Shown: one piece after another, positions 3,101-35,300 of the stretch
Position numbering within the stretch: position 1 is the first letter of the stretch
How the letters are laid out: every line of letters begins with the position of its first letter
DNA from: Salminus brasiliensis
Lineage: Eukaryota > Chordata > Actinopteri > Characiformes > Bryconidae
Direction of reading: 5' to 3'
DNA length: 64,000 bases
NCBI RefSeq assembly: GCF_030463535.1
Contig: NC_132878.1
Location: 23,131,925-23,195,924 of the forward strand
Program-made: the position numbers and the translations under genes
Notes under the pieces: generated by a model
The model's input: only the letters and a program-made list of their open reading frames with translations
What the model was told of the DNA's origin: nothing
The model's database searches: none

Positions 3101-6100
3101 ACTGTATACTATATATTCAAATATTCATAATAATATCTTCACAGCAACTGCAGATATATTTGTCATGGTTTTTCACTGGTTACGCTAGAGTTTATTATAA
3201 ATTATATTTATAAATTATAAATAATTTTTTTTTTTTTTATATTTTCTCACCCAGGTAGGCAGTGTAGGTGCTGGGTGGTGGTGGACATGGCTGGAAATGG
3301 GGCAGAGTGCTGAAATAGAGCCCAGTGCCTGGTCTAAGGGGGCTCAGCATTGGAGGGGGAGTGTACGGAGGGGGCTGAAAGCCTGGCTTTAGTAGGTGGT
3401 CAACGAGGTATGTAGGTGAACGCAGCTGGCTGGGGTAACCTCCTGCAGCTCGGCATCCCTGCCCCCCAGATTCAGCCAGATTGGGAATGATCAAAGATCT
3501 CAGGAGATCAGAACGACAAGACTTTCTGGACAAGTCATTGATGTTATTCTGCTTCTCTGCCTGCAGGGGGACAATATACAGAGAGTATTCTCTGTTTGCA
3601 GGGTATCTTAAATTAACTTAACACACTTGCATAAGTATTTCACACAGTCTGAGGTTGGTAGTGGTAATACTTGAGGCATCTATAAGTGTTTTTTTAACAC
3701 CATTTGTAAAAACAAATATGGAAATATATATGTAATAATTGTATTTATAACTGTGTAGTTATACAACAGCTATAATGCATTTAACAGACGTGTTAATACT
3801 CATTATATTTTTGTTATGGACTACAGTACTACAGCATTAAATGTGTACCAACTTGAATTTTGAGATATACTAGTGTAATTACAGGAGTTAAAGTACCATG
3901 ATCTATCTGTAACAGCGACATCAACAGTAGGTATACTTGTGTTGCAGGGATTGTTAATGTGTAAACCACAGTTTTTACAAATACTTAAAAATACTGTAAA
4001 TTGGAACTAAATATGTCCTATCCAGTTTTATAGATTTTATATATTTTAAACTGTAAAACATTTAATGGGTAATGGAACAATAAAAATAGTCCAAAATGAC
4101 ACAATTAATATGTTTTTTTTCCCATGAGAGGTAAAAGGTTTTCTTATGACAGTGACACTATGCAAGTTGGCATTCATTTACAACATCAGCATGTAGTACA
4201 GGCTATACATATAAAATACTGTATAATAAAGGGAATATTTTTTACTGATTGTACTGATGGTTTGTTGAAAGGGGATTCTTTGCCCAGGACAGGCACAGAA
4301 ACTGGGATAACCAGTGGTGACAGCTGGAATCCGTGGGACTCTTGGATCTGTCCAGCTCCCCTGCCTTCTTTTTTACCCTGCTTCAGGAATCAAATAGTAA
4401 TACCAGGAGAACATCAGTAAACAGTTCCATATATATAATTTGCTTGTAATATGAAAGAGGCATCACCATTGACTTATGGTCATCCATTTTAGCAGAAGAA
4501 ATTGTTGGAGCTTGTGAAAACAAAGGCCAGGGTTGAACATGGCAGTCAGGTGAATATGTTAGATGTGTCCTGAGAAGAAAAAACAAAGCGATACAGCAGC
4601 TTTAAAAATTTGCTGAGGGACCACAAAACTGGAATCACTGAATTACTGCCTACAATAAACCTGACCTGCCGGGGTCTTTTCCATTTTGTCTTATAGCAGC
4701 AGCACCTTCTCCCTGTATGATGGAATGGCAGAGACAAAGCTACAGTAAATTATCTACTCTTTACAACATCATCTAAGGAGGAATTTGCACACAGACCACT
4801 CTACAAAAAATTGGAATCAGCGTCTACAATATAAAATGAATTTAGTTCATCTTTCTTTACATGTTTTAAATGAGGAAGTAGTGAAATAATGGGTTTAAAT
4901 GATTGATAATAATAATTTTTAGATTGCATTACATTTTCATGGAAAACACCAAAAATGCCTCAAAAAATGGTCACTGGAAAAACACAATTGACTGTATATA
5001 GATACTTACAGTAAATTACAGTATTACTCACAATTACAGTTAATTACAGTAAAGGTTATTCTAGTTCATAAAATAATGAAAACTTCCAAAGGCCTGAAAA
5101 GTGCTGTAGAACAATGGTAAAACAGTCTGTTCAAACCCCACTGTAATAGCAATACCTTGATTGTGAAAGAGGGGGTGCTCTCTGTACTGAAGGATGCCAT
5201 TGCCACCTGGCTAGGGGAGATAAGGTATGGTGGGTGGGGCCTGGACTGTGTTTTTGTTTTGGGTTTGGTAGCACGTAGAGGAGGGACAGGAACATTAGTC
5301 TTCGTGGTCTTCTTGCCCTTCTTGGGTGGAGGTGGAGGAAGACGACAAGGCTTTCTCTGGTTTGACGGTGGCGCCACTGAACTAAGCTCACTGTCTGATA
5401 TAGAGCATGACTGTGCTCCACTGGTGAACTGAAAGTCTTGCTTCAGTAAAACTGGTTGACTTTTCTTAGGGGAAGCTGTGAATGGCTTTAAGAGACATTG
5501 AGTTCCTGCATTTGTTTCCTCCTTGCAAGGGTGCACAGACAGAACCCCCTTCGAAGATTGAGGGTTTGTCAAAGGAAAATTCAGACCATCTTCCCAACCA
5601 TGGACATTTACAACTTTTGCCTCATGGTCATCTGGTGCCACTAGGTCCACCGTAGCGTGTCCAGGCCATGGGTAGACACTTGGGGGCCACTGGTTAGAGG
5701 CGCCATGGGGTGCTGGCAAGTCTACTGCTGCTAAGCACCAAGGTTCTCGGATAACAGGCAGGTTGACTTTTGGGAAGCGATTCGACCCAGTATTCCCTAC
5801 TATTGAAGCACACCCAGTGTAGTTTCTGTACCTAGCTCCACAGCTAACAAACTGCTCAAGCTGAGAGACGAAAGCAGATTTTGGTGGAGAGTCAGAGAGA
5901 GAATGATAGCTTTTAGATGAAGATTGGTCCTCCGTCACTGCAGGAGGATGTGGCGGCTCCCAAGAAACTGAGGAAGGTTCAGGGGGGTCTGGTGTGCTGC
6001 ACTTCAGGGAGTGCTGGTTGCAAGAAACCTTGTGGCAGCCAGGCTTAGTGCAGGAATGAGCCTTCTCCTGGTGGGTCCGCATATGAGCCGTGCTACAGAG

Positions 6101-7407
6101 AAAGTATGACATGTCCCTTAATCATGGTCCAAATTACAGAGTTACATGTTGTATTTACACACTGTATTTTTAGCTTGTGTATAATTACTAACTGGGCTAG
6201 CTTCTAAAATTACAAAATAATTTATAACAATAACTATATTTTGCACAGATGGCATATGACATTTGTTTAGAAGCCAAAACATCACCAAACCATCCCACTG
6301 ACCCTTATTTTGAACAGGCCCATCTATTTTACTCTCTATTTTACACTGGTTCTAATTTTCTTTCTTTGTTTCTTTTGAATGTGTCCTATTCATGAAGGGC
6401 TGATGTTCTTCTTACTTTTCAGAAATTTTACTTTTATGTAGGAAAACTAGGCTGATGTCTCTGATGTGTGGCTCCATCTTTTTTTCCCTTTCAAATTACT
6501 GTCATGATTATAACTCATTTTACTTTGCGTGGTTTCGTCTAAGGTCTGTCCCACACTACAGTAAATTTTACCTAATGTTGAAAATGTTCAAGACCCTACA
6601 AATATATATATAATTTGCTCAACACTCACAAGGTTCAAGGATGAATTAAAAAAAATACCCTCTTCCCACACGTTACAGCATACATATTGAGCTTGCTTAA
6701 TATTTTTAGATCAGAGATGTAAAGGCACACACCACACCAGAGGATAATCTAGGAAGAAAATAATTTGAGATCAACTTCAAATTGGGACACCTTCTGTAAT
6801 TGTCAGTAGGTATTAATTGGCCTCAGGCATCTGGTTTTTTATGAAAATGAGTTCCACTCACAGGTGATCCTGCCGTTTAAATCTTCGCTGGCAGATATTA
6901 CATGCATGGGGTCTGTCCGGTTGGTGGCTGAGTAGGTGCTTGTTGAGAGCATTTGTGGTCCTGAATACTTTACCACATTCTGAACACTTGTGTTTAATAA
7001 CTTTGGCCTGCTGCATCACTTGTGCTGGAATAAGTTCAAGTCCAAATGGGGATTCCATCTCTTTGTCATAAGCCTTGACAAGAGGAACTACCAACAGAAA
7101 AACAACATGAATTCAGTATTTTAGGACAGCAACATTAAACTATATTATTTTAAAGATGGAACAGTTTATTTTTTGAAACACAAAGCTGTACATAGTCACC
7201 AGTCTTGGTGCTCATTCCAGACTCATGGTTTATCCACAGGTGATCTTCCAAAGAGGGTAGTGGCGGGGTTAACTGGCTAATGAAGATTACATCATCTGAG
7301 AGGTTTTCAGTCACTGACAGCAAGGGCATCGTCTCGTCAGAAGGGTCCATAGCCTCCATAACCTGATCAGCAGACTGAAGTTCAGGAGACGTTCTCTCTT
7401 TAGACAT
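130..7407 (-). CDS. znf541: Zinc finger / ELM2 / SANT protein, ZNF541-like
   Basis: Likely a chromatin co-repressor scaffold; mammalian ZNF541 works with HDAC1/2 in meiotic germ cells. Coding exons in transcript order: 7407-7200, 7087-6862, 6092-5156, 4377-4246, 3560-3251, 3056-3002, 2787-2645, 2101-1998, 1614-1539, 1408-1326, 1074-964, 816-683, 331-130. All junction phases agree and give 906 codons plus TGA. Two N-terminal C2H2 fingers ([23 protein letters not shown]) span the first exons. A third C-x4-C start (CTKPGC) lacks its histidines. A long low-complexity proline/lysine-rich exon follows. Exons 3056-1998 encode ELM2 ([30 protein letters not shown]). Exons 1408-964 encode SANT ([23 protein letters not shown]). 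The last junction completes a canonical C2H2 finger (CQECGRSF..SAHMRIH). The start at 7407 is the first in-frame Met in that exon, so an upstream coding exon is possible. A further small exon at 4712-4666 has good splice sites but would break phase. TRERF1 or MIDEAS are relatives; linkage to ehd2 favours ZNF541. Confidence 0.82.
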
Positions 7408-17400: not shown

Positions 17401-19703
17401 GTTACAGTCCACATAAAACTCCTTCCCAAGAATTCCCCAAAATAAAGATACAGTCATGTGAAAAAGTTAGGATACTTAATAAAACCTTTTTTAGGATATT
17501 TAAACATATTAACATTTGGTCTTAATTTAAACAATATTAATATATGTAAATGTAACAGTATGAATAGAGGTAATTTAACTAAACACAGAAATATCTTTTT
17601 TAAATCATTTGTAAAATGAATAAAAATTACTGTTTTCCTGTGAAGAAAAAGTAAGGACACCTTCCACATTTATTACTACTTCAAATGCCTGAATCAGGGG
17701 CAGACTAGAACATGCTTAAAAAGGATTTTGGAGGACCCTATTTTATTAAAACCTCAGACTTTTAGTTTAGTTCGCTCTTAATTGGTGAATGTTATTACCA
17801 TGGAGCTTTCTGAGGCTTTTAGAAAGAAGGTAATAGATTCAGATAAGTCTGGAAGAAATCGGAGGCCGTTCCACTGTTTCCTAATTAATTTACAAATGTA
17901 ACAACAGCCAACATGGGCACGTCATGTTGTCATAGCAAGCTCAGTCCAACAGCAGACCACAATTTGCACACAAATTCACACAATCCTAAAATCTCATCAC
18001 AGGATCTACAGGTAGCTCTTGCCGCAGCGGAAGTCAAAGCACAGCATCTACCATCAGAAAGAGACCGCACGCATTTGAATTTCATGGTCTGTCAAAAACA
18101 CCATCAGAGCAAGACTAAAGTTTTCCACAGAACACCTACACCAAGACCAGGACATCTGGAACAATGTGCTTTGAACAAATTATTGTTTAATGAATTTCAT
18201 TAATTAAAAAATGGAATTATTTGGACACAGTAACATGACATGTTTGGTGTAAACCACACACAGCATTTGAGCACAAGAACTCTTTCTCAACTCTCTCTTT
18301 GAAGCAAAGAGGTGGACATGTCATGGTTTGGGGCTGCTTTTCTGCCGTAGGGCCTGGAGAGCTCTCCAACATAGAATCCACTTTGAATTCTTTATGGTAT
18401 CAAAAGGGTGCTTGAGTACAATTTCTTCAGTTTTATGTGTTCAGTTATATTACTTCCATCTATTAATATTGTTCAAGTGAAATTCAGATGTCCAAAGGTT
18501 TAAATATACAAAAAAAGAAAAAGGGTGCCCTAACTTTTTACATGACTGTATTTATTGAGTCTTTGAAAAGGCAGTTGATAAATAAAAATCCAGAAATTGC
18601 TATTTGATGCCATTTTTTCTTTTTAAATCAGAAACAAATGATGGAAAAACTGTTTATTGTTCAGAGCAATAAAATACTTGAATGTGAATGTTTTTGTAGC
18701 ACACTAATCCATGTTACTGTACTCTTCTAGCCTGCCAGCTAGCAGCTGGCAGCTAGGGGTTTACAGCTGGCAACAATGAAACAAAAGAAAAGCAATGCAC
18801 AACAGTTCTTATTATAAATCTGAATCCAGCACAGTTAGCTGATTTTTCCCACATCCACTAAACCTGCCTATTAACATGGCAGTTGAATCAGGTGTGTTTG
18901 AGCAAAAAAAGCTGGGCAGTAATCCTACCCTCCAGGACACGGGTTGCCTACCTCTATAGCAAATCTGACTCCTCATTGTGTGCTCCTCCCTTCATCCTAC
19001 AAATGCCCACTTGTAGCAAACTTGTGAAAAGTGCTACAAACTTCCATAATGTGAAGTGAAGTTGGCGAGGGCATGTTTATAAACATTACTGAAGGATATG
19101 TGTCCTTGTTAACTTTTCTATGTCCCCCACTGGCAGGAGCGACTCATGAATCATGACTTCACCAAGTTTAAAGCCATTAAACCCAAACTCATGGCTGGTT
19201 TGGATGAGCTCTTGACCAACGACATTGCAAAGCTGATGCCTCTTCTACGGCAGGAAGAACTAGAGGCTGCTGACCAACCCGGAGTGCAAGGTGGGGCCTT
19301 TCTGGGGACGGAGAAAGGTCCATTTTTTGAAGGGAACCCCTTTTATTACACAGGGCCCAGTGGAGAGTGTGAGGTGATATCTGGTGAAAGTTGGGTGGTC
19401 TCGAAAGATAAACCTAAATATGATGAGATCTTCTACAACCTCTCCCCTCATGAGGGCAAACTCAGTGGAACCAAGGTGAAGGACTGGATGGTCAGAACCC
19501 AACTGCCCAGCTCAGTACTGGGCAGAATTTGGAAACTCTCAGATGTGGACTGTGACGGCATGCTGGACGACGAGGAGTTTGCTTTGGCCAGCCATCTGAT
19601 CGAGGTGAAGCTGGAGGGCTTTGGGCTTCCCCCAAAGCTCCCTGCCCACCTGGTGCCTCCGTCCAAAAGAAGGCGCAAAACCTTAAATTCCGAGAACAGT
19701 TAG
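11495..19703 (+). CDS. ehd2: EH domain-containing protein 2 (dynamin-like ATPase)
   Basis: EHD2 is a membrane-bending ATPase that oligomerises at caveolar necks and regulates their stability and endocytic recycling. Coding exons 11495-11718, 12104-12280, 12919-13016, 15194-15606, 17232-17396 and 19137-19703 join in phase to 547 residues (vertebrate EHDs are about 535-545). Visible motifs are the P-loop GQYSTGKT at about residues 64-71, the [11 protein letters not shown] segment, switch DTPGIL, NKAD, and a C-terminal EH domain at roughly 447-540. The EF-hand-like loop [12 protein letters not shown] starts near 495. The tail ends in a basic stretch (PPSKRRRK). The start is the only ATG after the acceptor and matches family N-termini. 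The intron after 13016 begins GC rather than GT, and phase requires this. The intron after 17396 holds a Tc1 relic. Paralogues EHD1, 3 and 4 are less likely because of [11 protein letters not shown], tail sequence and linkage to selenow. Confidence 0.93.
12335..12465. mobile_element. Short MITE with about 42-bp terminal inverted repeats
   Basis: The left end (GTACCTACACTCATTTGG, then CATTTTATCAGGCACACC) is repeated in inverse at the right end (TAGGTGTACCTGATAAAATG, ending GCGTAGGTAC). The two arms pair with only a few mismatches, with about 45 bases between them. The arm resembles the common fish repeat with an ACTCA..CTTTATTAGGTACACC end. It lies in ehd2 intron 2, shortly after the exon ending at 12280. 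Confidence 0.8.
16945..16985 (-). mobile_element. Possible isolated Tc1-type end
   Basis: Read on the minus strand this begins TACAGTACCAGTCAAAAGTT, close to a widespread Tc1-like terminal repeat of fish. No clear partner end was found upstream, so this is a truncated relic or a chance match. It lies in ehd2 intron 4. Confidence 0.35.
17451..18548 (+). mobile_element. Degenerate Tc1/mariner transposon
   Basis: The ends are near-perfect inverted repeats inside TA: CAGTCATGTGAAAAAGTTAG at the left, and CTAACTTTTTACATGACTG at the right. The interior carries decayed Tc1 transposase, for example the translated piece [15 protein letters not shown] around 18320-18360. Stops and frameshifts interrupt the frame, and the 1.1-kb length is below the usual 1.6 kb. 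It is dead and sits in ehd2 intron 5, about 54 bases after the donor. Part of it extends an open frame beyond exon 5, but that is not coding. Confidence 0.88.
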
Positions 19704-20609
19704 GACTGTGGGGATGCATAGAGACTTATGTATAAATGCTCAGCAATTTACAGTCAAAACAGCTGAATGGTGGCTGAGATGACAGCGTATGTCTCACTCA
19801 TTTACCAAAGATTTATTACAATCAACTACTTCATATTACAGATAAAAGTGCTTACAGTAGTTCACATACTCTTTTACAACACACTGCAGCACTACCATCA
19901 TCTACCCAACATTAAAAGAAATAGAATAGAAGTAGAATTTCACCCCAGTATGAATGCTGTACGGTGGTCCTTTCCTCAGCCTATGTAAATTTTAAAATGT
20001 CCAGGTTTTCCCAATCCCATTTTTTTCATTTCATCGCTGAATGTCTGCTAAATAACATAACACTTGAAGTTCCTTTATGTCACGGGTTGGTTTGGTCTAA
20101 AACTTAGTCAAGGCCAGATAATGTGTTGCTGTAAAATGCAGCCCTGGGTCAAAGATAATTTTGATTCCAAGATGGTGCACAGCAGAATTACTTATGAAAC
20201 ATTATTATGAAAGGAAAGGGGTTTTGTGCTTGTTTATCTTCATTATATACTTTTAGGCAATTCATTTAGGCAACTACTAAACGATTTGCCAAATGGCATG
20301 AATTTGACGAGATGTAAAATGTCATGCAAAATTCATTAAACCTCATGTTAAAGTGATATTGTTTACACCATTGTTTTTGCGTGTCACATTTTTTTCTATT
20401 GATTTTTTTTTTTTTTTTTTTTTTGAGAAGAGCAGCATCAACAAAGACTATTTGTGACCTTATTGTGAACATGTTGTATTCTTCAAAACGACCACAGAAT
20501 GCATTTTAAATGTAAAGGGCTTTTTGTGAACCACTCAGGCCTGGAGCAAATATACATGAGCTACCAATAATATACAACCTTTGTTTAGAAAATATACTTT
20601 TCTAATAAA
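19704..20609 (+). other. ehd2: ehd2 3' UTR with poly(A) signal
   Basis: After the ehd2 stop no further exon is visible. The stretch is AT-rich, with a run of about 20 T near 20403-20424. The first well placed AATAAA is at 20604-20609, just before the selenow promoter. If it is used, the 3' UTR is about 0.9 kb. Confidence 0.5.
20604..20609 (+). terminator. AATAAA poly(A) signal, probably ehd2
   Basis: A canonical AATAAA hexamer lies about 900 bases after the ehd2 stop and about 110 bases before the first selenow ATG, in the same transcriptional direction. Confidence 0.5.
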
Positions 20610-20639
20610 AACCTAACCACATTTTCCGTTAAAGAAGTC

Positions 20640-20722
20640 TTTAGACGCTTCTCACGCGTACCGGAAGTGCAGCCGAGTGGAGCGTCTTTGTTGTTTTGCT
20701 GTGGCTCTTTGGCTTTTAGAAA
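20640..20722 (+). promoter_or_regulatory. selenow: Core promoter of selenow with ETS-type site
   Basis: The short GC-richer block after the ehd2 poly(A) signal contains ACCGGAAGTGC at 20659-20669, a consensus ETS/GABPA site. Such sites usually sit within tens of bases of the start of TATA-less housekeeping genes. That would place the transcription start at roughly 20660-20700, before the ATG at 20723. No TATA box is seen. The start site is inferred, not shown. Confidence 0.5.
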
Positions 20723-20851
20723 ATGCTGGGTTCGCTCCGCCTCGCCTGTTTCATAACAACCAAGACAATCAGCGCGAGATCTGCCAGACCTCTCACTTCT
20801 CTCCCACTCTCACATTATTTCAACCAGACAAGGGGTGTCTCCACCGCAGAA
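20723..20851 (+). other. selenow: Candidate in-frame N-terminal extension of selenoprotein W (mitochondrial-presequence-like)
   Basis: An ATG at 20723-20725 follows the in-frame stop TAG at 20717-20719 and has A at -3. From it 43 codons run open and in frame into the family start ATG at 20852. The peptide begins MLGSLRLACFITTK and ends NQTRGVSTAE. It has Arg at 6, 19, 22 and 37, Lys at 14, many Ser/Thr/Leu, and no acidic residue until Glu43. These are the features of a mitochondrial targeting sequence, with a plausible cleavage region after Arg37. Known selenoprotein W proteins start at the second Met and are cytosolic as far as I know. The sequence shows only that the frame is open; translation is inference. 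Confidence 0.5.
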
Positions 20852-23513
20852 ATGGGGGTCAGAATACACATAATTTACTGGTAGGTCACTCTAGTGCTAT
20901 TTATAGCACACGAAAGCGGATAAGTGCTCAGACTTGCAGATGTAGCAGATAGCTATCTCTCTGAACTGGGCTTCATCTGTGGAGCTGTAACAGCAGAAAC
21001 CGGCTGTTGTTGTTGATGAAAGTAGCGTTGTGTGTTTTTAACGTCTAGCAAGCCGATATTACACATCGCCCGTATTTTTAATAACTTCTTTACAGTTAGC
21101 ATGCTTGCAACTTTGCATTGTTTGGTAAAAAACTCAAAGACAGGCATTGATCTCGCCCAACAGGCCGTGTTAGTAGCTAATTTCTGAAAAAACATGCAGC
21201 ATTGCTAGACTGGAATTACCTGAGTGTTTAGCCCGCAGCACAGGTGCTGTAAAGATAATGAGTCTACAGCTGAGGTTACAGCTCTGACAGCCCTGGATAA
21301 GATGCACTGCTAAAAAACACAGCCAGGTGCTGAATAAAAGGAGCCTGCAGTCTTTACTTTATGACTGTACTGATGTTTTAGTAGTTAATATGTTAAGCCC
21401 TCATATCAACACAGCAATATTTGCTTTACAGAATATAATTCAGAGGACAGCAGTTAAACTAGTTATTGAATGCAGTAATGTTTAATAGCTGATATCAATG
21501 CAGTTATATTCATCCTTTTTTATTTGTTTCTTTTTTTTCTCAGTGGTGGATGAGGGTACAGACCCAAGGTAGGTTTTGTGTGCTCTAATTACAGAACGTT
21601 GTTTCTGCATCTGTCTGTGTTTATTTATTTGCTTCTGATTTGCTATTTACTATCTGATTGAATCCCCCTTGTGTTTTACAGTTCACCAAGCTCAAGACGT
21701 TGCTTGAGGATGAATTTCCAGGCGACCTTGAGATTGTAAGTGATCCAAACCTGTAATTTTGTAGACTAGAGAGAGAGTCGTGAATGACATTTCTTTTGCT
21801 GACTCTTTAGTCAGTATGGATTTTAATCTTTGATGCTGCACAGTTTATCTACAAGATCATCTATAGTCGAAGACATGTTATGTATCATAATACAGTTTCT
21901 ATCACATACGTATCACACACCCTACATTGTCCCTGAAAGCTGAACTCCTACTACTGTATTACTCCATTGAGCTTTCCCGAGGGAGATGCCTCTGTTGTGG
22001 AACAGAAAGCATCCTGGTAACTGTTGGAGAAAATAACCTATTTAAGAATTTGGTAGATTTCAAGAACAGTTACGAGACCTACGAATGCTGTGCTGACAAA
22101 CATGTACATCCAAAATGCTAACCTATATGTTCTAAAATAATTGTTTTATTTCATGTCATTTTAGAGCATTTCTGTTGGTCCACTCTTCAGGAAATGTTCA
22201 TACACTCTAAAAAGGGCAACTGCTGTCGCCAAAAAAAAAAAAAAGGCAATTGCAACCTTATGTAAATTCGGTTATGGTCAGAATATCAGTACCAGTTTTT
22301 TAATCAAATTGTTAATATTTGTCATGTGTTGTCATTTCATGTCGGTCCTAAAGAATTGAGGAAGTGTTTCTGATTGGGTCTCTGAGGTTTCTGTGTAGTT
22401 TTCTGTAGATACACAGGGTGTGTGCAGCTTGTATAACAGGATGGTGCAGCACACCTTGTGGTGAAGAGCGAAAGTGAAACAACAAAGACTTTTTTTTCGT
22501 GTCATTTAGCTAGTTAGGTTATTAAACTATAATTAATTCTTCGCACAAACTACTTTTTAGGGCCACTATAAAAACATGAATGTAAAGTTCTCTGAATGTG
22601 GATTACTGGTTAGTTAGTGCGGCCTTGTTCACGTTAATATGGTTACATTTGAAAATCTATTTGTGGTGTAAACGTTCTGTCTACATTAGTGTTTCTGCAT
22701 TGTTCTGTGTACACCCTGAAATGCAGGGAGTGATAGGAAAACTATGTGCCCAACACTTGAGCCACAAAGGTTCCTTATTTCCGACCAGTGTTTTCAAATC
22801 TGTCAGGCCACGGAGAGCTTTTTTTTAGTAGAGGAAAATGCTAATACTTTGTGGGCAGATGGCCAGAACTCAGTTTATCTAGGTAACTTAAGAGGAAACC
22901 CAGCCTGTCTTCATGAAAAAGAGCTGAGGAGCATTGCTACCTGGCTAACTGAGAAATCCGGCTTGGTAGGTCTGTGATGATGATTATTGTTGTGGTTGGG
23001 CGTTCAGCATTCTTAAAAATGTTTCATAGCTAGTACATGGTGATCATATATGGTCTTGATTGCTGAGGCCACACAGCAGGTTGGGTTTTTGTTACTTGTT
23101 GTTTTACTGTGTTTATTTCTGTTTCTCTATGCAGTCTGGTGAGAGCACCCCCACAACTTCGGGGTGGTTCGAGGTGGAGGTGAATGGCAAGCTGGTGCAC
23201 TCCAAGAAGGTGATGAACCCTTTGCTGGCACACTTGTTTATTTAGCTCACAAATAATGGGGTCTTCTGGCAATTGCAGAGGATACTTTAATATTAAACCT
23301 TCTTTACACTCTCCATGCTTTTTTGTTCTGCTTATAAATGAGATCATGTAGCTCTTGTATGTTGGATATTTAAATTTACATGTACATGCCATATATCACA
23401 TAAAAACCTGAGGTTCAGACTGTCTGGTTTTACAGAACGGGGATGGCTTTGTGGACAGTGCTCAGAAGATGGCCAAGATTGTGAGTGCTATTGAGAAGTC
23501 CATTGAAAAATGA
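20852..23513 (+). CDS. selenow: Selenoprotein W
   Basis: A small thioredoxin-fold redox protein of the Rdx family (SelW/SelT/SelH/SelV). Coding exons 20852-20880, 21544-21568, 21682-21735, 23135-23209 and 23436-23513 join in phase to 86 residues, the usual SelW length. The first intron splits the Cys10 codon, giving C-G-G-U with UGA at 21551-21553 read as selenocysteine 13, then GYRPK. This is the CxxU redox motif. Later family segments are LKTLLEDEFPG, SGWFEVEVNGKLVHSKK and NGDGFVDS. A SECIS element in a downstream 3' UTR exon supports recoding of the UGA. The ATG at 20852 has a strong context (gcagaaATGG) and matches family N-termini; an in-frame ATG 43 codons upstream is described separately. 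Standard gene callers would stop at the UGA. The TGA after IEKSIEK at 23511 is the true stop. Confidence 0.95.
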
Positions 23514-24063
23514 GACTATGATGATCTTGGAGGTGAGAAACTTTAACATAAATTGAAATGGACATTTTACAGCTGTAGCAAACTAGTGTCTGTGTCTTCC
23601 AACACTCCCAATGTAACACAACAAGCATGTTGTTGCGATTATAACATGGTTTATTGACATTTAATAATAACTCTTGAGACAATCATTAATATATTAGTTG
23701 ACTAAGGCAACTAATATATAATATATATATTATATATATATATATTGTACACTGTACATTGTATTGTACAGTGTACATTGTACACTCATTGTACAGATGC
23801 ATAACTTTAATGTAATTTTCTCAGACAGCTCAGTGTTTGTGCAGTGCTGTTAATCGGGAGCTATTTGCACTTGGATTCATTGTTTTGACTCTGAGTTGAG
23901 TCAGGAGTATTTGTAGTCTAAAGTTTGTTGAAATTGTATTGTTCTTGCAGATGTATTAGTAATTTTGTCTCTCTCTTCTTTTCTCTCGTGCTCTTTCCTA
24001 TTTTCACCCTCTCCTCATCCATCTGTCAGTTTGTTCTTCTTTGTTTGTCGGCCTCTCTGGCAG

Positions 24064-32314: not shown

Positions 32315-35300
32315 TTCACTGTTTTGTTGGTCATGTACAGACTTCAAAACCATCATGTTGCACCAGCAGCAATTATATGCCCTTGTTGCTTCATTTATTT
32401 GTGTAACTGGGCACAAATGGAATTACACTTTGAGAGTATCATTTGATTTTAGCTGTGTTAAAACTCAATAGCAAAACCAATTAAAACCCCTATCTTCAGG
32501 CTGCTAATTGTGTTTGCTAGCAATATTAAAGCTTGCTAACAAAGAAACTAACAGGACTATTGGTTACACTAGTTACATCAGTTGCATGGCTTATAGTGGT
32601 GTTTTGCAAAGTAAAAGTGATGTGATCTCTCAGAACTGGGCTCTTGAAGAACTGGTAGTTGAGTTGATGCGCTGTTTATGTGGTTTATTTTATTTCATTA
32701 GTTAACAATGTTCATTGTTTAATATTAATTATATTTATTTCTTTATTTAAGGCTGGGCATTATTTCAGTTTTCTTATGGCTCTCTATGTAAGGCATCAGA
32801 CATGACCCTGCATGTGTGTGGTTGAACTAGTGTTGCAACTTTAACAAAAGAGAATGCTGCAGGGCAGCCTAAATCCGGACAGCCGTTACAACACAGTTTT
32901 GTGTTGGTGCACCTGTCTTGAGGGAGACACCCTTGTCTCAATCACAGCCTGACCTATCTTTCAGTCTTTCCCCCTCCCAGATTTCTTGTGCTTTGAACAA
33001 CAGAGATTATTATAGCCTGGTCCTGTGGGTGACTATTGTCTCCTCTGCTGTGCTGATCTTGGTATGACTGAACAAAGAGCCCGGTGTCCACAAGGGACAT
33101 GTGTTTCTTTCTTTTGTAAAGCTTTGTCAGGAAGTCCCCATCCTGTTTAAGGCTTTTATGTATGTTTTGCGCAAGCTTTGCAGTATGTATGTGATTTATT
33201 TGATCTTGAACATGGCAGGTTAGGATAGTTTCTGTAACAAGATGCTATTGCAAAGATTATGTAACTATAAGGGCATGCAGGTGCATGCCTGGTAATGTGT
33301 GAGCCGGAGTTAAATTCTTGACCTTAATTGCCTGCTGGAAGCTCTGACTCATTCATAGTTTTCCTCATCCTTGAGCTTATTTCACATCAAGCATCGTGTT
33401 GTCCTGTGAGCAATATGCTCCTATATTAATCAAAGTGTCCTTCATAACGGACGTGCAAGCACTGCAAATTTATGCTTTGGGACTATTTGTGATGTGTGCC
33501 ACATGCGGCACTCAAGCAGTTTCTGTGCCGAAACAGTACTTAATGTAAGTATCCTTGCTAAATGTACAATCTAGGCCAATAAACAGTTTTATCTTAAGAT
33601 GATAGAGCTAAAATTATGTACAACAATAAGCTGTTTATAAGAACAAAGCAGGTAACTGACAGACCAAGCTGTGAACTTTAACAGCTCATTAAAAAAAATC
33701 TATGGCCAAATGTAGCCTGCATAAAACTTATTTAAGAAAACAAGAACAACATAGACATGTGTAGCTTGTGTTTACATCATTTACATCAAACCGAAATCAT
33801 TTTTGCCTCATGATGTGTCTTGTTTGGTGTGAATGCGCCGCAAAAATATGCTGTGTCGCTTAAACTGTATGATGTTAAGGAAAACACAAATCTTTCAACT
33901 ACAGTTTACTGAAAATTGGTAAAAAATAACAAATAAAAAAACAAAACTAAATGCAGATAACTTGCTATTAACTTTGGTGTTTTGGTATGTTTAAATGTGA
34001 GGTTAACGTCAACAGTAATTTTCTGTTATTGCACTACTTGCGTGGGCAGTATTTGATGTCAGAGCAACATTGTTAACCATGGAGAGGGGGGGTGCAGAAT
34101 TCTGGTGGAGTGAAAAGATACTATTTCCTTTCTAAATTAGATGAAAAACATTAATCAAGACAGCATCTATGCTAATTCGTATTAAATGTGCCAATTAAAA
34201 TTTTCAGTTGCTATCACTACATCCTGTGCAAACTGTTGTTCATTTTTGTTTATTATCACTGATTCCATGAGAGAGCCCTATATGTGTATAGTGCTCTTGA
34301 CTATGCCAGTTTGTATAATTTGAAATCTGTTTTTACGTTTGTGTCACTTCAGGGCGTTCCAGCGTGAACTACCAGGCACAGGAGACGCGATCGCGACTCT
34401 CGAAGACTGTGGAGCAGATCTTGCGAGATGGCATGGCTCTGCCCTACTACCTGCAGTTCATGGAGACGCGCTCGGCAGAACACTTGGTGCGCTTCTGGCT
34501 AGAGGCTGAGAGTTTCCGCTCCACCAGCTGGTCCAGGGTCCGAGCACACAGCCTCAACTCGGTCAAGCACAGCTCCCTAGCCGAGCCTGCATCTGCTCTG
34601 GGTTCTCCTGGCTCTCCAGACTCATCCTCAGCCCTCTCCTCTGGGTCCCCCAGTGTGGATGGAGGGGAACCGGAAGACCCTTTTCCCTCCCGGATCCCTT
34701 CCAGCCCCCAGGACACTAACTCTAATGGTGGGGCCGGGGCGGGGTATCGAAACACTGATTGTTACGAGGGGTCTTCGAGGCCTGGAACACCCCAGCAGCT
34801 TTCGATCCGATCCGAGACGCCAAGTCGACTGCCGGCCACCTCTTCTAGGACAGGAACACCAGTTAAAGGCCAGTCCACCAGCGCACTCAGAGAGCTCTCT
34901 GACAAGCTTATGAAGAGTGAGTTCTAATGAACGAATGACCTAGTGAATGTGTTATGTAAAAAAATATTATTATTAATATATTTTTTTAATAATGCGAATA
35001 CAAATTGCACAGGGATAATATAATTAATACAAAAAGATGTTAATGCTTGAAAGTAGCCATGGATCTTATTTCAAACAGAAAAAATAGTTCATATATAAAT
35101 TACTGTTGTAAGCAATGTAATATATAATACTACAATATAAATGTGCAGTGTTTCTTGGATGGAAGCATATTGTGTGCAGATGTCCATGGTATTTTTGGTT
35201 TAGTCATTTTGCTTAATGAGGTCAAGAAAAACACAAGCAATATCTAACAGCAAGGTTTTTAAAGTGTGTCTTAGTTTAGAGGGAAGGCTAAAAAATGGAA

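Follow-up and report, generated by a model that had tools for sequence, protein, structure and literature searches.

In the excerpted text of PMC10650576, SelW is classed as a cytosolic protein and its exact function is described as unknown. The locus analyzed here, a 64-kb stretch of DNA (the window), raises the question whether one fish selenow gene could encode, by means of an in-frame upstream start codon, a mitochondrial form of this protein in addition to the cytosolic one, as had been proposed in an earlier note on the same DNA.

The window holds a complete selenow gene on the plus strand, whose standard protein of 86 residues reads, after splicing, MGVRIHIIYCGG-U-GYRPKF...EKSIEK. From the standard start codon (ATG2) onward, the coding part of exon 1 occupies 20852..20880 (+) and specifies MGVRIHIIY plus two bases of a Cys codon. 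Coding continues through exon 2 (21544..21568, +), which carries the end of the CGGU redox motif with TGA as Sec, exon 3 (21682..21735, +), exon 4 (23135..23209, +) and exon 5 (23436..23532, +), the last of which is coding up to the TGA at 23511-23513 and then forms 3' UTR up to a donor that we read as GTGAGA at 23533 (score 6.5). The CxxU motif (CGG-TGA, Sec being specified by TGA) is split over exons 1 and 2. A SECIS element (RF00031; 24062..24127, +; 30.2 bits, E 0.00091) stands at the start of the inferred exon 6; as its score does not reach the gathering score of the family (35), the scan run at that threshold does not list it. The acceptor inferred for exon 6 is the AG at 24062-24063 (score 3.8), in which case the first two bases of the SECIS match would be intron. 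A profile search placed the Rdx domain (PF10262) at residues 47-119 of the long form, with 65.9 bits (cut-off 22.6). Among PDB entries, mammalian SelW (2npb) gave 98.5 bits versus 39.5 bits for MIEN1 (C17orf37, 2ljk), a comparison confined to these two proteins, and the 2npb alignment starts one residue past the Met of ATG2. The selenow of the window is thus an intact, genuine fish SelW with the CGGU motif and a SECIS element. Mammalian SelW is described (PMC3316567) as a six-exon gene in which coding starts in exon 1, this exon contributes nine residues and the SECIS is in exon 6; the window gene fits this layout. According to the same source, as excerpted, SelW1 is absent from the bony fishes studied, zebrafish excepted. 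If the gene is SelW1, it probably implies an otophysan (zebrafish-side) or other SelW1-keeping lineage.

Several other features were observed in the window. At 19113-19703 (+), the last part of a protein with an EH domain (EH 67.1 bits, DUF5600 33.5 bits) is encoded; we take it to be EHD2, which neighbours SELENOW in human too. A stop-to-stop frame of 351 codons at 5066-6121 (-), Pro- and Ser-rich by eye and with no Pfam match, may be a large exon belonging to a gene that evolves fast. A 202-codon open frame at 34319-34927 (+) shows a partial RGS match of 22 bits, below the cut-off of 23.9, and presumably resembles AKAP10.

The upstream start codon (ATG1) opens a 43-codon in-frame N-terminal extension (20723..20851, +), a candidate mitochondrial presequence, with the sequence MLGSLRLACFITTKTISARSARPLTSLPLSHYFNQTRGVSTAE. 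The frame is closed just 5' of ATG1 by an in-frame TAG (20717..20719, +). The codon list bears out the description in the earlier note, i.e., an ATG at 20723 with an in-frame TAG before it and 43 stop-free codons that join the ATG at 20852. Its count of four Arg and one Lys, with no acidic residue before position 43, is equally correct (R6, K14, R19, R22, and R37; the first acidic residue is E43). ATG1 and ATG2 are the only ATGs in 20600-20900, and they share a frame. The 129 bases of the extension comprise 45 C, 31 A, 30 T, and 23 G, and are therefore C-rich. GC contents at the first, second and third codon positions are 0.44/0.58/0.56 in the extension versus 0.47/0.39/0.62 in the SelW coding sequence; by this measure the extension did not resemble coding sequence, though 43 codons are too small a sample for this to count.

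The resemblance of the extension to a presequence was evaluated with a small home-made classifier, i.e., a ten-feature logistic model built on a hand-compiled set of 39 mitochondrial and 44 other N-termini. Its leave-one-out AUC was 0.953; 36 of the 39 positives were found and seven of the 44 negatives were miscalled, two of them at or above the value obtained for the extension (RPL8, 0.94, and vimentin, 0.88). The ER-signal proteins P4HB (0.78) and albumin (0.50) were also miscalled. Extended SelW scored 0.874, which exceeds 16 of the 39 presequences of the set, versus 0.014 for the standard N-terminus. Over its first 40 residues the extension has a net charge of +5 (presequences of the set: median 4, range 1-8). 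The composition is thus presequence-like, as the earlier note had proposed, with its net charge of +5, freedom from acidic residues before position 43 and the above classifier score.

The amphipathicity of the extension is weak or modest; it falls short of the presequence median and does not surpass that of the chance extensions described below. Over 18 residues its hydrophobic moment is 0.199 (presequence median 0.256, median of other N-termini 0.181), a value that exceeds eight of the 39 positives and 28 of the 44 negatives; over 11 residues it is 0.353 (medians 0.385 and 0.295, respectively), exceeding 14 positives and 33 negatives. A putative cleavage site, loosely R-2-like (RG/VST), was found by pattern in the codons of RGVST (residues 37-41; 20831..20845, +), R37 being placed 7 residues before the standard Met. 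It should be stressed that this loose pattern was picked after the peptide had been seen; of 2,681 chance extensions with 25 codons or more, 30 have it in the last 12 residues and 141 anywhere, and it is present anywhere in eight of the 39 presequences of the classifier set. The strict R-3 pattern R-x-[FYL]-[AS] is absent from the extension and present in 14 of these 39 presequences.

The leading single reading of these data, which we hold tentatively and at less than even confidence, is that SelW may be dual-targeted in this fish lineage, i.e., that one gene may provide a mitochondrial and a cytosolic CxxU redoxin. Exon 1 of selenow would carry two start codons in one frame. Transcripts starting just 3' of an ETS-type motif would include ATG1 and yield a 129-residue precursor, the first approximately 38 residues of which would act as a mitochondrial presequence; cleavage at about RG/VST would then leave a SelW approximately five residues longer than the 86-residue standard protein. 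Cytosolic SelW would be made from ATG2, either by ribosomes that miss ATG1 behind a short leader or from transcripts starting after 20723. Of this scheme, the pair of starts in one frame, the SelW gene and the makeup of the peptide are shown, whereas we infer where transcription begins, the use of ATG1 as a start, the import and cleavage of the precursor, and a function of the long form. The gradings attached to this and the other readings are judgements and not computed probabilities, and a functionless chance ATG is nearly as likely.

That explanation, to which we give almost the same weight, holds that an in-frame ATG arose by chance in a C-rich leader and is unselected, even if sometimes translated, SelW being cytosolic as in mammals. 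The baseline for it was provided by 20,000 dinucleotide shuffles of 20661-20851. In-frame openness of at least 43 codons was found in 29% of the shuffled leaders, and 752 of the 20,000 (3.8%) contained an ATG extension of that length or longer; 40 of these 752 (40/20,000 shuffles) also had a net charge of +5 or above together with first 42 residues free of acidic ones. When 20600-20851 was shuffled instead, the respective values were 21% for openness, 493/20,000 for the ATG extension and 32/20,000 after addition of the charge and acid rule. A hydrophobic moment equal to or above the observed one was present in 437 of the 752 chance extensions. Moreover, the real leader is also open in one of the other two forward frames, so that the openness of this C-rich stretch is not, alone, a coding signal. 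This second frame extends from stop to stop over 111 codons (window 20617-20952, +) and covers the leader and exon 1; both ATGs of 20600-20900 belong to the other frame.

The classifier was applied to chance sequences as well. In 30,000 shuffles, 1,092 chance extensions had 43 codons or more, and of these 405 scored at least 0.5 and 81 (81/30,000 shuffles) at least 0.874; for chance extensions of at least 25 codons, 1,019 of 2,603 scored at least 0.5 and 205 reached 0.874. The window itself has 164 ATG frames with 43 codons or more; these values were reached by 50 and eight of them, respectively. The frame by itself is thus weak evidence, and amphipathicity is none. What speaks against chance is the combination of properties, which is uncommon for a single gene (81/30,000 by the classifier, 40/20,000 by the cruder charge rule); these frequencies apply to one gene, and genome-wide, across tens of thousands of genes, many chance cases would pass.

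For the making of two forms, the contexts of both starts are relevant, and they agree with the earlier note: ATG1 (TAGAAA-ATG-CTG) has A at -3 and C at +4, and ATG2 (GCAGAA-ATG-GGG), in a strong context, has G at both -3 and +4. A purine at -3 is reported to be the strongest determinant of initiation (PMC4299517), and the zebrafish start consensus is given as AAACATGGC (PMC4172775), from which ATG1 differs at -4, -1, +4, and +5, and ATG2 at -3, -1, and +5. As a start, ATG1 ranks between middling and good, and its A at -3 speaks against much leaky scanning. Of the leaky scanning proposed previously, the strong context of ATG2 is confirmed, whereas the step itself is weak, given the A at -3 of ATG1; because ATG1 is a fairly good start, leakage would need a short leader or transcripts of different lengths. 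For transcription starting at 20670-20710, the predicted leader before ATG1 is 53 to 13 bases long. Leaders of at most 40 bases are reported to go with more downstream starts and to be enriched among nuclear genes for mitochondrial proteins, but when the leader of ALDH9A1 grows from 4 bases to 40, this is already enough to shift output to the mitochondrial form, made from the upstream start (both PMC13219423, as excerpted). Taken as a whole, the dual-form proposal of the earlier note finds partial support: it keeps a real selenow, a presequence-like composition with a plausible processing site and a preserved standard start, and loses ground on amphipathicity and leaky scanning, both weak.

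Whether ATG1 is transcribed at all bears on a further explanation, unlikely in our judgement, according to which selenow is transcribed mostly or entirely from starts between ATG1 and ATG2, so that in most cells the extension belongs to the promoter or the 5'-flanking DNA. An ETS-type motif, CCGGAAGTG, marks the probable core promoter at 20661..20669 (+). The ETS site claimed previously is indeed present upstream of ATG1, with its core at these positions and not at 20659. No other exact copy occurs in the 64-kb window (nine of 100 window shuffles contain one), and the site lies about 1 kb downstream of the stop codon of the EH-domain protein. ETS sites are usually close to and upstream of transcription starts, and the core is placed 54 bases upstream of ATG1, which favours starts before 20723 and argues against a late start. 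In 200-base windows, the observed/expected CpG ratio is 1.17 and 1.08 for those starting at 20550 and 20600, 0.17-0.71 for those starting at 20000-20450, and again 0.92-1.00 within intron 1, for the windows that start at 20900 and 21000. The CpG-richer stretch around ATG1 favours the presence of ATG1 in the mRNA, though the ratio is raised in intron 1 too. As the CpG-richer windows cover approximately 20500-20850 and recur in intron 1, starts could be spread, in line with late transcription.

We consider it very unlikely that an upstream noncoding exon is spliced to the AG at 20719, 20827, or 20849, which would make ATG1 intronic or place it at an exon edge. Splice sites were scored with hand-written matrices, and donors were scored over 20000-20860. 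Pyrimidine-rich stretches precede the three AGs, which score 1.7, 1.0, and -0.1, respectively, so that two of them surpass the weakest acceptor assigned to selenow (0.7); the score of 1.7 is reached by 275 of the 4,102 AGs in the window. Against such splicing, the other four of the five assigned acceptors score 3.8-7.4 (7.4, 6.2, 5.7, and 3.8), and the best donor-like site in 20000-20860 scores 0.9 versus 2.0-6.5 for the five assigned donors of the gene. Since no donor in this interval matches the real ones, ATG1 is probably exonic if transcription starts upstream, near the ETS site. The mammalian layout, shared here, with coding from the first of six exons (PMC3316567), also argues against an upstream noncoding exon. 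Finally, the idea that the extension is made and aimed elsewhere (membrane or ER), or merely tunes expression as an upstream start, is highly improbable in our judgement, for although the N-terminal LGSLRLACFI is fairly hydrophobic and P4HB and albumin fooled the classifier, no long hydrophobic core is seen by eye and the basic residues are spread along the peptide.

Searches for relatives of the extension were conducted with the 53-residue exon-1 peptide. In viral_contigs, 299 pattern stretches were found, none of them confirmed; in genome_contigs, 590, again with none confirmed; and tblastn against plasmids gave no match. These are non-fish collections, and the results have no bearing on conservation. 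Within its own genome, all matches were selenow itself (one for DNA, one for the exon-1 peptide, and three for the SelW protein, i.e., exons 3, 4, and 5). The DNA and exon-1 peptide searches thus detected neither a retrocopy that includes exon 1 nor a sister presequence, and the SelW protein search, which has low sensitivity for short exons, detected no paralogue, though related genes are expected in fish. Among the literature matches listed (mainly open-access), there was no report of a mitochondrial or N-terminally extended SelW and none of 5' RACE of fish selenow. Zebrafish SelW expression is mentioned in PMC2278128 and PMC8881744, the excerpts of which have no word on the 5' end; SelW is described in neurons and synaptosomes in PMC3869984, in the excerpt of which the term "mitochondri-" does not occur. 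Translated upstream extensions in human are reported to be often unconserved and probably not functional (PMC11317171), which weighs against the dual-form reading, as does the classing of SelW as cytosolic (PMC10650576).

If dual targeting is true, a mitochondrial SelW would give the protein a compartment and candidate partners, i.e., mitochondrial thiol redox, fish embryos would offer a direct test, and SelW would join the selenoproteins with dual targeting. Because the processed form would be only approximately five residues longer, ordinary gels would not separate the two, and gels alone cannot place SelW in the cytosol only. The predicted N-terminal peptide of the processed form, if real, would be a clear target for mass spectrometry.

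Comparison with known systems sets the window gene close to vertebrate SELENOW (SelW1) of the Rdx family, with which it shares the CxxU motif, an exon 1 that codes for nine residues ahead of the active-site Cys, a coding region of five exons and a SECIS in exon 6. It differs in that its exon 1 could code for 43 further upstream residues, none such being reported for vertebrate SELENOW in the sources as excerpted. The N-terminus of SELENOV, a SelW relative, is likewise enlarged through exon 1, which codes for 261 residues on average, of unknown function (PMC3316567); SELENOV is, however, a gene duplication in placental mammals, whereas in the window one gene would make both forms. SelO is a shown mitochondrial selenoprotein (PMC3994087). 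The selenoprotein GPX4 has a mitochondrial form with an N-terminal targeting signal and a cytosolic form (PMC13059024); its forms are presented there as established, whereas the mitochondrial form of SelW is predicted. TRNT1, AKR7A2, ALDH9A1, and RFK have two in-frame starts, the upstream one leading to a mitochondrial targeting sequence (PMC12718117, PMC13219423). The first AUG of both TRNT1 and ALDH9A1 is reported to stand in a weak context, whereas ATG1 of SelW has A at -3. Cytosolic and mitochondrial isoforms made through alternative starts are thus of a documented kind (PMC12718117), to which the two forms predicted for selenow would belong.
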